Assembly: GCA_017516485.1 (NCBI GenBank)
Contig: JAFXCH010000009.1
Coordinates: forward strand, 1-34,890
Source of the DNA: Clostridia bacterium
GTDB taxonomy: Bacteria > Bacillota > Clostridia > Oscillospirales > Acutalibacteraceae
DNA length: 34,890 nucleotides
Direction of reading: 5' to 3'
The translations under genes were made by a program, and so were the position numbers. The notes under the pieces were generated by a model. The model ran no database searches. It was not told the DNA's origin and saw only the letters and a list, made by a program, of their open reading frames with translations. Positions 26,422 to 30,804 of the stretch are shown here, one piece after another (position 1 is the stretch's first letter; each line of letters starts with the position of its first letter).

Positions 26422-26973
26422 TCAATCAATATGCATTTTATAGTTTTTAACCTTATACGTCACAGAGCCATCGCTTTTAGAGTGTTCGCTGTAGCTTTCA
26501 AATTTCAGACCGCATTTTTCCATAACTCTGCCGGAAGCAGGGTTGTCAACGGCATGACTTGCAGTAAAATCCCTAATACCGTGAAACTCATAAGAGTATT
26601 TGATTATTCTTTTTGTAGCTTCGGTTGTATAACCTTTGTTCCAATATTCATATCTTATGTTATACCCGAAGCCCCATACTCCATCATCGTTACCTGCCGG
26701 ACCTATGCTGATGCTCCCGATAAGAATATTGCCTTCTTTCAGTACAATTCCCCAATGAAAATCATCTTCAAATGGGACTATTTCTTTAAGCCAACGAACA
26801 GTTTGACAAATATTGGTATAAAGCGGATATGACATAAACCTGTTTACTCTCGGGTCGCTGTGCCATAAAAATGCCGTTTCGGCATCTTCCGGAGTTAACG
26901 GCCTTAAAATCAGCCGTTCTGTTTCAAGAACGGGAGTTCTTTCATAATATGATTCTTTATTAATTTTATTCAT
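26422..26973 (-). CDS. GNAT-family N-acetyltransferase (RimJ/RimL-like)
   Basis: A 183-residue GNAT enzyme of the RimJ/RimL group: LETERLILRPLTPEDAE at the N-terminus, the acetyl-CoA-binding YWNKGYTTEA (motif A), and NPASGRVMEKCGLKFE (motif B). These acetylate protein N-termini, antibiotics or other small amines; the substrate is unknown. The ATG overlaps the stop codon of the upstream hydrolase gene (ATGA), so it is the translationally coupled third gene of the minus-strand operon that starts at 29127. Confidence 0.85.
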   Translation of the reverse strand: MNKINKESYYERTPVLETERLILRPLTPEDAETAFLWHSDPRVNRFMSYPLYTNICQTVRWLKEIVPFEDDFHWGIVLKEGNILIGSISIGPAGNDDGVWGFGYNIRYEYWNKGYTTEATKRIIKYSYEFHGIRDFTASHAVDNPASGRVMEKCGLKFESYSEHSKSDGSVTYKVKNYKMHID

Positions 26974-28095: not shown

Positions 28096-28929
28096 TTACT
28101 CCTTTTTCAAAACTTCAAGTGTATGCGGCGACATTCCTATTAAATCCTGTCGTTCGCAGTTTTTAAAATGATACCGCAGGTAGGTTTGGTACGTGAAATC
28201 GTCCATTTTTTCTACGGATTTATTCATATGCGGTGCATAGCCGTCCGTAGCCACGAAATGAAGCCTTCGAGCACCAAGAGGATTAGTCAAATCGAAAATT
28301 TCATCCCTTGTGTACAGCTTGAATACACCGTGCGGTGGAAAGAACGTTTCAAAGGTATCAATGTTTATTAATTCGGTATCAATAAACTCCTGCAATCTGT
28401 TTTCGGCAAAAGCCCGTGTGAGGACAGAAGGGTCAAGCATACAGTACGCAATAAAAATATAGCCGTCTGTTTTTGTAATGCGCATTGCCTCAGACAAAGC
28501 TTTTTTCTGCTCTTCAGGTGTGTAAAGGTGATACATAGGACCCAATAGCAGCGTTACGTCAAAGCTGTTATCATCATAAAACGACAAATCAACGGCATTT
28601 CCTTGCCTTATGTTGACTTTTTCACCAGGCAAGGTGTTGGCTTTGAAAATTTCAATGTTATGGTCAATCAATTCAACCGCTTCAACCGTATATCCTTTTC
28701 TTGCATAATGGTGAGAGTATCTGCCCGTAGCTGCACCGATTTCTATGATATTCATATCCTTTTTCAGATATTTATCAATGTATTTTACGGTTGTCAGAAA
28801 CTCAATTCGTCCGCATTTGGACAGCAGGCGAGAGTCCTCATCAATACGGTTATAGAAATCGACAAGGTGGTTGCCGGTTTTTACGGGGCGTCTTTTAAAA
28901 AGTTTTTTGAATAAATCAAATATTTTCAT
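28096..28929 (-). CDS. Class I SAM-dependent methyltransferase
   Basis: A 277-residue methyltransferase. A basic N-terminus (about 1-15) precedes a Rossmann fold with motif I IIEIGAATGRYS at 61-72, an acidic motif II (VEAVELIDHN), and LLLGPMYHLYTPEEQ at 128-140. The latter is common in small-molecule or uncharacterised methyltransferases of Firmicutes. It is not an Erm- or RlmL-type enzyme by motif, so an rRNA target is not supported. AAGGAG lies before the ATG. It is the first full gene after a leader ORF plus terminator, which suggests expression is controlled by attenuation. The substrate is unknown. Confidence 0.85.
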   Translation of the reverse strand: MKIFDLFKKLFKRRPVKTGNHLVDFYNRIDEDSRLLSKCGRIEFLTTVKYIDKYLKKDMNIIEIGAATGRYSHHYARKGYTVEAVELIDHNIEIFKANTLPGEKVNIRQGNAVDLSFYDDNSFDVTLLLGPMYHLYTPEEQKKALSEAMRITKTDGYIFIAYCMLDPSVLTRAFAENRLQEFIDTELINIDTFETFFPPHGVFKLYTRDEIFDLTNPLGARRLHFVATDGYAPHMNKSVEKMDDFTYQTYLRYHFKNCERQDLIGMSPHTLEVLKKE

Positions 28930-28950
28930 AATAAAGCTCCTTTAGATATA

Positions 28951-28992
28951 AAAAAATTAACGGTGCAAGTATCTGCAGCTACTTACACCGTT
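28951..28992 (-). terminator. Intrinsic terminator between the leader ORF and the methyltransferase (attenuator)
   Basis: On the minus strand, 28992-28980 pairs with 28971-28959 in a 13-pair stem with one G-U pair, followed by AATTTTTTTAT. The same base pair is a C-A mismatch on the plus strand, so the element works for minus-strand transcription. It lies 24 bases after the leader stop codon and ahead of the methyltransferase. Part of its 5' arm and loop is complementary to the leader ORF (see 29041-29055). Confidence 0.88.
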
Positions 28993-29016
28993 ATATACAT
29001 TATGAAATATATGCTT

Positions 29017-29127
29017 TTACAATTTCAAAATGAATACAGAAGTGTAAGCCTGCAAGCGATACTGATAATCGTGCTGTGCAAGCCAATCCATATTCATATC
29101 TGATTTTCTGATAAGACTGAATATCAT
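29017..29127 (-). CDS. 36-residue leader peptide or small protein upstream of the methyltransferase operon
   Basis: A short ORF starting with ATG at 29127 and ending TAA at 29017. It begins MIFSLIRKSDMNM and contains the tyrosine-rich DYQYRLQAY in the middle, with a hydrophobic end (SVFILKL). GAGGT lies exactly 7 bases before the ATG, and a consensus promoter would place the mRNA start about 20 bases upstream. A terminator follows. So promoter, ribosome binding site, ORF and terminator are complete in 240 bases. Because the terminator precedes a methyltransferase gene, and codons 25-29 can pair with the terminator's 5' arm, I favour a regulatory leader peptide over an effector protein. A larger overlapping frame (29000-29185) lacks such a site. 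Confidence 0.7.
   Translation of the reverse strand: MIFSLIRKSDMNMDWLAQHDYQYRLQAYTSVFILKL
29041..29055 (-). promoter_or_regulatory. Antiterminator-like segment inside the leader ORF
   Basis: On the minus strand TGCAG (29054-29050) and CTTACAC (29048-29042) recur with the same order in the complement of the terminator 5' half (TGCAG, then CTTACAC, with 3 rather than 1 base between). The RNA of this segment can therefore pair with terminator bases 28988-28982 and 28978-28974 and prevent the terminator. A second, weaker copy, CTTGCAC, is at 29082-29076. A ribosome covering this segment would allow termination. Confidence 0.65.
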
Positions 29128-29152
29128 AATTTTTACCTCGTTGGTTTTTGAC

Positions 29153-29181
29153 AATATAGCACCAAATCAAAAACTTGTCAA
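29153..29181 (-). promoter_or_regulatory. Consensus promoter for the leader ORF and methyltransferase operon
   Basis: Minus strand TTGACA (29181-29176) is exact, TATATT (29158-29153) has one mismatch, and the spacer is 17 bases. The predicted start is about 29146. Confidence 0.85.
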
Positions 29182-29245
29182 GCAATTTCTTAAAAAATTA
29201 AAATTTCAGTTGTTGCTCTGATTGAGGCAGGGGGCAGCAAAACCA

Positions 29246-29304
29246 TTATACAAAAGGTGCTTTTTGCGAAATTGCGAGTTATACAAAATTAATCTTTTGT
29301 ATAA
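29246..29304. repeat. Three copies of a 10-mer, two forming a perfect inverted repeat
   Basis: TTATACAAAA occurs at 29246-29255 and 29279-29288, and its exact reverse complement TTTTGTATAA at 29295-29304. The last two make a perfect 10-base inverted repeat with a 6-base spacer. It lies 10 bases upstream of the promoter at 29314, the position of an operator. Confidence 0.65.
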
Positions 29305-29313
29305 TTTAGGGGA

Positions 29314-29342
29314 TGGACAAACGGTAAATTATAGTGTATAAT
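29314..29342 (+). promoter_or_regulatory. Plus-strand promoter upstream of the T-rich region and recombinase
   Basis: TGGACA (29314-29319) and TATAAT (29337-29342), spacer 17 bases. The predicted transcript starts near 29349, about 475 bases before the recombinase ATG, which would give an unusually long leader or a separate non-coding RNA. Confidence 0.65.
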
Positions 29343-29823
29343 ATAAATAGATTAAAGTCTCACAATCATTGATATTTCAACGTTTTCTCTTGCATTTTAC
29401 ATATTTTGTATTGATTATTCTTTTACGCAGTATTACAATTAACATTGTTATCAGAAAAATTTTTCTTTCATTTGTTTTTTCTTTTTATTTTTACACTTGT
29501 ATCTGCGCTGTTAGCTGTTTACTTGTGTTATTCAATTTATTGTTGTCCGTTTTTCAGCCAATAGAAATTTTTAAAGCGATACTTTGGTCACTTCAAAAAA
29601 ACTGAGCGGATTGCAATTATGATATATGATTAACTGATAACGCATACCGGCCATTCAATGTCTTAATTCTTTCTGTTTTCCAAATTGTAAATTATTTATT
29701 CATATATCAGGTCGTCGCTTCAATTTCTCATTCGTTAAAAATATCAAATTCTGTTTTTACTACCCTTTTATTACTAATTTTCAATCCCCTATAAACAAAT
29801 GTTCGGCGGAGGATTTTATTTTT

Positions 29824-30804
29824 ATGAAAAAAGATGAATTGCGCTTTTTACCAGAAATTGTTAAGGGTTATCTTGATTATCAGACTGCTGTACGTAATAA
29901 ATCCGATTTAACCGTGCTTGAATACGCATCGGATTTGAGGACATTTTTTCGCTGGTATCTGATGTCAAAGGATAAATCCAAGAAACCAAAACCGCTTAAC
30001 GAATACGATATTTCGGCAATTGATGAAGATATAATACGCTCAATCAGACTTAACGACCTTTATTCGTTTCTTGCCTACTGCCAGCGAGACCTAAAAAACA
30101 GCGGCAAAACAAGGGCACGTAAGGCATCTACTCTGCGCGGTTTCTTTAAATTCCTTAAAGCACACGGAATTATAGAAAAAAACCCTGCCGAAGACCTGGA
30201 TTCACCCCGTGCAAAAAAAGCCTTACCTAAATATCTTTCCCTTGATTCAAGTATGGCTCTGCTCGATGCCGTTGAGGGCAAAAATTTTGAGAGAGACTAC
30301 TGTATTATCACGCTGTTTCTCAATTGCGGACTGCGTCTTTCAGAGCTTGTCGGGCTAAACCTTAAAAGCATCGGCGGTGACGGCAGCTTACGTGTACTGG
30401 GTAAAGGAAATAAAGAGCGTGTCGTTTATCTCAACAAGGCTTGTGCCGATGCACTAAACAGCTATCTTGCAGTAAGACCCAGAGACGGTGTCAAAGACCG
30501 TGAAGCGCTGTTTATCAGCCGACACAAAGCCAGAATCAGCCCCAAAACTGTTCAGCACATTGTAAAAACATATCTTGAAAAAGCAGGTCTTGAGGGCTAT
30601 TCAACGCATAAGCTCCGCCACACAGCCGCAACGCTGATGTATCAGCACGGCAACGTTGACGTAATGCTTTTAAAGGAATTGCTCGGTCACGAAAGCCTTG
30701 CAACCACGCAGATTTATACTCACGTTGCAAACGAGCAGATTCGTTCGGCAATTAATGCAAATCCGCTATCACAAGTAAAAAAAGAAAAGAAATCAGTAGA
30801 GTAA
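29824..30804 (+). CDS. Tyrosine recombinase, XerC/XerD family
   Basis: A 326-residue integrase/recombinase. An N-terminal SAM-like core-binding domain (about 10-120; KNPAEDLDSPR ends it) precedes the catalytic domain. The catalytic residues are R171 in GLRLSELVG, the H262-x2-R265 pair in THKLRHTAA, H289 in LLGHESLATTQ and the nucleophile Y298 in QIYTHV; the lysine is in GKGNKERVVYL. Length and motifs fit a Xer recombinase acting on dif rather than a phage integrase, though it is about 25 residues longer than E. coli XerD. GGAGG lies 11 bases before the ATG, slightly far. It overlaps the convergent SpoIIM-like gene by 12 bases. XerC or XerD cannot be told apart here. Confidence 0.88.
   Translation: MKKDELRFLPEIVKGYLDYQTAVRNKSDLTVLEYASDLRTFFRWYLMSKDKSKKPKPLNEYDISAIDEDIIRSIRLNDLYSFLAYCQRDLKNSGKTRARKASTLRGFFKFLKAHGIIEKNPAEDLDSPRAKKALPKYLSLDSSMALLDAVEGKNFERDYCIITLFLNCGLRLSELVGLNLKSIGGDGSLRVLGKGNKERVVYLNKACADALNSYLAVRPRDGVKDREALFISRHKARISPKTVQHIVKTYLEKAGLEGYSTHKLRHTAATLMYQHGNVDVMLLKELLGHESLATTQIYTHVANEQIRSAINANPLSQVKKEKKSVE

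Follow-up and report, generated by a model that had tools for sequence, protein, structure and literature searches.

In trp-type attenuators one RNA segment engages in three successive pairings with earlier and later partners, as is predicted for the locus described here. The vmlR leader of Bacillus subtilis combines an upstream open reading frame (uORF) with an anti-antiterminator, an antiterminator and an intrinsic terminator, and a ribosome held on the uORF blocks the anti-antiterminator (PMC9226507, available sections); the same logic is proposed here. For the bmrB leader, also of B. subtilis, a terminator, an antiterminator and an anti-antiterminator are predicted, translation of the leader is required and its rate matters, and the available sections of the paper call the role of the anti-antiterminator unclear (PMC4191407). 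The toiL uORF ahead of topAI-yjhQ-yjhP in Escherichia coli answers at least five antibiotic classes (PMC12121999, available sections) and its operon, like the one studied here, encodes a putative methyltransferase and a putative acetyltransferase. In Listeria monocytogenes the rli80/hflXr leader is likewise described as attenuating in a ribosome-dependent way, through alternative structures that form either a terminator or an antiterminator (PMC6310831, available sections). A literature search covering titles and the starts of abstracts, mostly outside subscription journals, returned nothing recognised as the present element, and term searches of the accessible text of PMC11109978 and PMC2965389 showed no such motif. 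Rfam gave no match for the window at the gathering score and none for seven loci at E up to 1.

The window is a 34,890-nt stretch of DNA from a Clostridia bacterium (JAFXCH010000009.1), contig 22 of a 2.17-Mb genome. On its minus strand a near-consensus promoter, a Shine-Dalgarno sequence (SD), a 36-codon leader ORF and an intrinsic terminator precede a methyltransferase-hydrolase-acetyltransferase operon (Table 1). A sequence-only reading of this locus had proposed a leader-peptide attenuator, and the components it named were located. The consensus promoter gave 11 of 12 matches (TTGACA at 29181-29176 and TATATT at 29158-29153 with TG ahead) and was one of the two best of seven promoter-like sites in 28900-29400 (3.2 in shuffled sequences); hexamers resembling it were also seen upstream of relatives. 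The 36-codon ORF and its ribosome binding site were as described, and the blocks TGCAG (29054-29050) and CTTACAC (29048-29042) lay exactly where they had been placed. The intrinsic terminator was likewise present, with one pair more than the 13 that had been counted, and was the sole terminator-like site in 28900-29400 (shuffle mean 0.3). The leader RNA from 29146 to 28930 folded at -59.2 kcal/mol (z -4.74) and none of 200 shuffled sequences equalled it.

Table 1. Positions of the leader element and of the operon genes in the window.
Feature	Position	Strand	Basis or remark
Sigma-70-type promoter, TTGACA - 17 nt - TATATT, extended -10	29153..29181	-	promoter scan
SD of leader ORF, GAGGT	29135..29139	-	inspection; also P1 5' strand
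Leader ORF, 36 codons + TAA, MIFSLIRKSDMNMDWLAQHDYQYRLQAYTSVFILKL	29017..29127	-	ORF list; frame test
P2 5' strand GGCTTGCA, leader ORF codons 15-17	29077..29084	-	covariation
P2 3' strand TGCAGGCT, within segment B	29047..29054	-	fold and covariation
Segment B, switching segment; upstream partners P2/P1, downstream partner antiterminator (29055-29041)	29032..29056	-	
Antiterminator partner (terminator 5' arm and loop), pairs with 29055-29041, bulge 28980-28979	28973..28989	-	duplex prediction, covariation
Intrinsic terminator hairpin, 14 pairs (one G-U), loop of 8	28958..28993	-	terminator scan, covariation
Terminator T run, seven T	28950..28956	-	sequence
Class I SAM-dependent methyltransferase, 277 aa (Methyltransf_11), first gene of operon	28096..28929	-	
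Hydrolase, Phosphodiest family PF01663, 373 aa	26970..28091	-	
GNAT acetyltransferase, 183 aa (Acetyltransf_3 PF13302)	26422..26973	-	

Outside the leader, an inverted repeat with 22-nt arms (82% complementary) was seen at 29245-29305, near a 326-aa ORF (29824-30804) resembling a tyrosine recombinase by eye, and the GC skew changed sign between 27 and 30 kb of the window; these features possibly mark a dif/terminus region. The ATTATACAAAA...TTTTGTATAA portion of the repeat was also present upstream of the L003 leader. The pattern GGCTTRYAYTKYTRTA was found at six places in the window's own genome with at most one mismatch and at seven for the reversed control, and was uninformative.

Of the genomes of the genus, 7 of 11 encoded relatives of the window methyltransferase (E ≤ 1e-20), as did 41 of 300 from the family (E ≤ 1e-30), the window's own genome included. 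The upstream DNA of 48 distinct relatives contained promoter, SD, leader ORF and terminator in 25 cases and was without the element in 23, and a search of 22 of these 23 regions with a model built from 23 copies (R1) gave no match. In the 25 carriers the ORF and its complementarity to the terminator were kept, as they were in copies preceding other genes, the opposite of the absence of conservation that had been named as the outcome speaking against an attenuator. Two divergent leaders before methyltransferase relatives (L007 and L022) kept the ORF and the terminator; these outliers were assigned by eye, L022 scoring 30 bits with R1 and L007 remaining unmatched.

RNA of the leader ORF had been predicted to form an antiterminator. 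In the window the ORF segment paired with the terminator 5' arm and loop through 15 pairs interrupted by a 2-nt bulge (-18.9 kcal/mol), which 3 of 300 codon-shuffled ORFs equalled, and this pairing was conserved in relatives. With 23 copies aligned by MAFFT (A1), pairing was kept in 96.6% of cells and 5 of 9 pairs had changed on both sides, which is the co-variation between ORF segment and terminator arm that had been proposed as a check; the corresponding values were 95.2% and 4 of 12 pairs for 14 copies (A2), and 93.9% and 6 of 12 pairs for 75 copies (A5). The three alignments overlap in rows, seven copies of A2 being shared with A1, and the fit of A5 took in the other helices but left the antiterminator out of account. 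For each alignment none of 500 shuffles reached the observed paired cells and covariation score; the count of both-sided changes was less striking, being equalled by 14, 86 and 17 of 500 shuffles for A1, A2 and A5. When the partner was shifted by 1-3 columns pairing fell to 24-41%. Codon-shuffled ORFs paired equally well in more than 5% of trials for 6 of 25 copies (L006, L007, L021, L028, L032, L040), and the best duplex lay elsewhere in the ORF for L019, L032 and L034. Duplex energies compared across clades were not discriminating as a covariation test, own ORF-terminator pairs not being uniformly better.

The terminator itself covaried (both-sided change at 11 of 14 pairs, A1, 23 copies) and was present between ORF and gene in 25/25 methyltransferase-linked copies and in 83/84 of a larger set, the finder having missed L103. 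An attenuator whose ORF RNA can form an antiterminator is, from these alignments, well supported. In one copy (L020, 1278-1470) the leader ORF was without the usual stop and ran for 60 codons, continuing through the terminator hairpin.

Two additional helices, P1 and P2, were absent from the earlier description. P2 pairs an earlier stretch of the ORF with the 5' part of segment B, and its cells were paired at 91.3% in A1, 73.4% in A2 and 73.9% in A5. P1 joins the 3' part of segment B to the leader SD and start codon through 12 pairs, of which 7 showed both-sided changes in 14 copies (A2) and all 12 in 75 copies (A5, an alignment leaning to the model). Terminator and P2 together, on the sequence-only alignment of 23 copies, changed on both sides at 15 of 22 pairs, and none of 500 shuffles did as well; P1, P2 and terminator together did so at 18 of 32 pairs in 14 copies and 30 of 32 in 75 (structure-fitted alignment). 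The structure guides were L019 and L020 for the A2 and A5 counts (helices and antiterminator) and L001 for the A1 counts. P1 is short in the window's clade, consisting of GAGGUA with UACCUC in L002-L005, and is weaker still in the window copy, where by inspection 29139-29135 pairs with 29043-29039 (5 pairs, one G-U) outside the minimum-energy fold. In the window P2 is clear and P1 weak, and the predicted anti-antiterminator role falls there to P2. Because antiterminator, P1, P2 and terminator covary, two mutually exclusive states appear to be under selection.

The wider distribution was searched with R1 and with a second model (R2) built from 14 copies and comprising P1, P2 and the terminator; the genome draws for family, order, class and phylum overlap. 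R1 matched in 39 of 398 genomes of the family (E ≤ 0.01). R2 matched in 66 of 394 genomes of the order at E ≤ 0.01 (49 at E ≤ 1e-4), in 21 of 391 of the class at E ≤ 0.01 (3 at 1e-4, two of them from the window's order) and in 2 of 299 of the phylum at 1e-4 (one from the window's order). Class-level R2 matches with E between 1e-4 and 0.01 were mostly about 100 nt long and were treated as background. Outside the order, genome G827 carried an R2 match (L204, E 6.5e-8) in which the element precedes a methyltransferase of the window type. The phylum-level match in G1231 (E 4.5e-7) had a short, poorly paired P1. Three R2 matches at 1e-4 (L198, L205, L206) were without the leader part and were not taken as real copies; they were dropped before counting together with L102, L104 and L105 (weak R1 matches) and L106-L109 (duplicate copies). 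The window scored 31.9 bits with R2 and 154.6 with R1, and since R2 scores it poorly subtypes of the element exist. No element lay ahead of the methyltransferase homologues from a faecal phage contig, from a plasmid record of Subdoligranulum variabile and from a Cetobacterium plasmid; the phage contig contained one weak match of 20.6 bits, distant from the homologue.

A strong conserved secondary structure with covariation might equally belong to a metabolite riboswitch or a protein-binding leader to which the ORF is immaterial, but the behaviour of the ORF, along with the lack of an Rfam match for the window and seven loci, makes this extremely unlikely. When starts were taken from the aligned column, whatever the length of the ORF, 67 of 75 rows had a start codon there, and all 67 of these ORFs continued without a stop across segment B; each of the two other frames did so in 14. 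The remaining 8 rows were mostly window-clade copies offset by a base or two in the alignment. Under an 18-70-codon rule a leader ORF was found in all 85 copies analysed, with a length of 29-60 codons except in two copies with doubtful start calls (L204, L040). In the length-filtered set, from which L007, L020, L022 and L204 were left out, 81 copies were open through B compared with 13 and 18 in the other frames, a result partly selected by the 18-70-codon requirement. The stop codon lay 19-43 nt past the start of B in 81/81 copies, and 28-33 nt past it in 64, whichever frame was used.

Segment B was read in all three frames (44, 34 and 7 copies, the assignments of L007, L022 and L204 being unreliable). 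Compared with L004, L005 and other members of the clade, a net +1 indel immediately ahead of B sets apart the window and its two closest relatives, in which the same RNA is therefore read in another frame. Among 16 pairs of near relatives changes were spread over the codon positions as 32/43/51 with a pN/pS of 0.55, a weak constraint which base pairing may explain. These data bear on the idea of an erm/msr-like leader, whose nascent peptide would arrest the ribosome together with one particular drug. Known resistance-gene leaders operate by such arrest and subfamilies of the present leaders share peptide endings such as GLYCRT or LIPLYSF; however, since the copies translate B in three different frames, shared endings follow from the RNA, and the nearly even distribution of changes over codon positions, together with the occurrence of RLR in 0/85 and RxR in 6/85 peptides, also speaks against peptide-directed arrest, which we regard as unlikely. 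Because the ORF stays open and its stop keeps a fixed distance, yet B is read in three frames and the peptide is weakly constrained, the sensor is probably the position of the translating ribosome and not a peptide. The term attenuator thus stands, and "leader peptide" is misleading for a segment that is conserved as RNA.

The composition of 47 representative leader peptides (of 85) was skewed relative to the first-gene average, Glu, Asp and Lys being depleted (0.16-0.49 of that average) and Trp, Asn and Cys enriched. Trp is the sole candidate for an amino-acid-specific attenuator of the trp/ilv type, in which uncharged tRNA stalls the ribosome at a given codon: it was enriched 3-fold over first-gene proteins (33 residues in the 47 representatives, present in 26), and a starvation stall would function in this architecture. 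It was, however, absent from 21 of the 47 peptides, runs of at least three of one residue occurred in 5 of 85 peptides, each with a different residue, and none of 55 first genes was assigned to a biosynthetic or transporter family, so that we consider amino-acid-specific control improbable.

To follow the effect of ribosome position, transcripts ending short of the terminator 3' arm were folded under the constraint that the ribosome footprint stay single-stranded (n = 83; L204 and L103 were left out). With a ribosome on the start codon the gain from pairing the terminator arm rose by a median of 3.9 kcal/mol over free RNA (69 up, 12 down); relative to a ribosome placed 8 codons upstream of the stop the median rise was 3.7 kcal/mol (68 up, 15 down). 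With the ribosome stalled 16-35 codons short of the stop, the expected number of pairs between the arm and any leader position averaged 11.6-13.2, compared with 7.0-8.4 for stalls within 15 codons. It had been suggested that a ribosome completing the leader hides the switching segment; in these folds the antiterminator strand was masked by a ribosome on about the last 4-15 codons, and a ribosome on the stop codon itself covered only the 3' edge of B. For the window a ribosome on the start codon was without effect (7.5 vs 7.9 kcal/mol), the values at codons 8 and 14 being 12.0 and 19.0; stalls at codons 8-14 were helpful and those at codons 22-30 and at the stop unhelpful. At equilibrium at least six antiterminator pairs were expected in 62/83 copies for free RNA, 60/83 with a ribosome on the stop and 81/83 with a ribosome on the start. 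Equilibrium folding does not decide on an untranslated OFF state, the antiterminator being already favoured in free RNA. Because it is so favoured in most copies, we infer that the OFF state must be partly kinetic, with P1 and P2 predicted to form first and persist.

The genes behind the element were assigned by Pfam on representatives (10 and 9 proteins) and by BLAST for the others, the first gene being the first ORF of at least 100 aa starting within 400 nt downstream, with SD-preceded starts preferred. The element does precede the methyltransferase/hydrolase/acetyltransferase operon, as had been claimed, and it is not tied to that operon, many other gene types following other copies. Among 60 copies that had not been found through the methyltransferase, 55 had a first gene and all 55 could be assigned to one of seven enzyme types. 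Methyltransferases made up 20 of the window family, 10 others and 5 fused to GNAT domains, a share biased upward by the training of R1 and R2 partly on methyltransferase-linked copies; the rest were 11 GNAT proteins, 4 PNP_UDP_1 nucleosidase-like proteins, 2 P-loop kinase-like proteins (with no Pfam match above cut-off) and one each of S66 peptidase, S51 peptidase and ANT(6) relative. Of the five copies with no first gene, three (L168, L171, L184) lie where the sequence ends 89-294 nt past the element, and in L163 it ends 1.2 kb past, with a GNAT ORF at 522 nt, beyond the first-gene rule. The fifth, L094, has a well-conserved element (R2 107.5 bits) with no ORF of at least 100 aa starting within 400 nt, and is possibly an orphan element.

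Multi-gene operons followed 40 of 80 copies, in varied combinations drawn from the same gene pool, PF01663 hydrolases included. The five GNAT-methyltransferase fusions (L187 by Pfam; L188, L190, L191 and L193 by BLAST), standing behind the same leader, hint that the two activities may act together. None of the three window proteins, in agreement with the view that the operon is not a recognised resistance cassette, and none of 10 and 4 further proteins scanned matched a recognised resistance family above its NCBIfam cut-off. ANT(6) was the only recognised resistance family among the first genes, the L195 protein, a PF04439 streptomycin-adenylyltransferase/ANT(6) relative, scoring 249 bits and so below the NCBI cut-off of 420. 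The S66 peptidase was the first gene of L092 (656-1621); MccF, the protein that gives immunity to microcin C, is a member of this family, and that would be consistent with a compound that inhibits tRNA charging. A match between the window methyltransferase and PADLOC mad2 (7.9e-17) covered residues 49-180 only and was taken as a shared fold.

Promoter and terminator bound a unit of about 190 nt, and one might suppose that the short terminated transcript is itself the product, as a small RNA or a small protein poor in Glu, Asp and Lys, with the operon read by constant leakage. A conserved antiterminator would, however, be of no evident use to a stable product, and the first gene is close, starting a median of 22 nt past the element and within 50 nt in 71 of 80 copies; we hold this reading to be very unlikely.

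Taken as a whole, the data make it likely that the element is a ribosome-dependent transcription attenuator of known logic, occurring across the order and without an Rfam match. When segment B pairs upstream with P2, and in P1-type copies also with the SD and start codon through P1, the terminator arm would be left free and transcription would stop; when B pairs downstream with the terminator 5' arm and loop, no terminator would form and the operon would be transcribed. A ribosome on about the last 15 codons would mask B, and after its passage P2 could re-form, to the advantage of the terminator. If the ribosome were instead held further upstream, anywhere from the start codon to some 16 codons short of the stop, P1 or P2 would be kept open with B still free, and the antiterminator would prevail. 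Such a hold would typically be caused by a compound that disturbs translation, and the enzymes of the operon may act on such compounds. Disturbed protein synthesis would thus probably switch the genes on, and it is the kinds of genes, together with precedents, that suggest a link to translation inhibitors. Sequence comparison shows the ORF, the competing helices with their covariation, where the stop lies relative to B and which gene families follow; switching in the cell, its direction, its inducer and the function of the enzymes are proposed on that footing.

We also lean, by a small degree, towards a broader proposal. It holds that this is one order-wide, modular translation-stress switch working in any frame before operons of at least eight unrelated superfamilies (methyltransferase, GNAT, PF01663 hydrolase, PNP_UDP_1, P-loop kinase-like, S51, S66 and PF04439), that the enzymes behind it, most of them unstudied, form a regulon directed against translation-targeting compounds, and that in P1-type copies the leader ribosome binding site doubles as a strand of the switch, so that stalling at initiation suffices for the ON state. 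If this is true the element would serve as a genome label, the gene behind it being probably an enzyme used when translation is hindered, and it would flag candidate resistance or self-protection enzymes that are invisible to similarity with known resistance genes, among them methyltransferases, acetyltransferases, P-loop kinase-like and nucleosidase-like proteins and S51/S66 peptidases. It would also offer a natural case of a conserved RNA switch with a frame-shifting leader peptide, in which the roles of peptide and of ribosome place can be compared across natural copies.

Compared with the described systems, the structural features of an attenuator of the vmlR/bmrB type are all present in predicted form, namely an ORF with ribosome binding site, a terminator, an antiterminator and an earlier sequestering structure. 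The available sections on vmlR describe a three-codon uORF, an SD that is single-stranded before the hairpin and a single gene (ABC-F) (PMC9226507), whereas here the ORF has 29-60 codons (two doubtful calls aside), the SD and start codon form an anti-antiterminator strand in P1-type copies and many kinds of gene follow. The bmrB structures lie inside the bmrB coding sequence and are a single case before an ABC transporter (PMC4191407, available sections). The toiL leader acts on translation and Rho termination and not on an intrinsic terminator (PMC12121999, available sections), and the similarity of YjhP and YjhQ to the proteins found here is weak and at superfamily level only; a relationship of the enzymes was not upheld, a profile of 31 window-type methyltransferases having no YjhP match and single-sequence matches being weak. 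The rli80/hflXr leader has a 14-aa peptide with an RLR motif, which the leaders here lack, and serves a single gene (PMC6310831, available sections). Unlike trp-type attenuators, the present leaders share no codon run and no biosynthetic genes were found among the 55 first genes downstream. The logic is already known from vmlR and bmrB, and what the present comparison of sequences adds is one predicted element standing before many enzyme types across an order.
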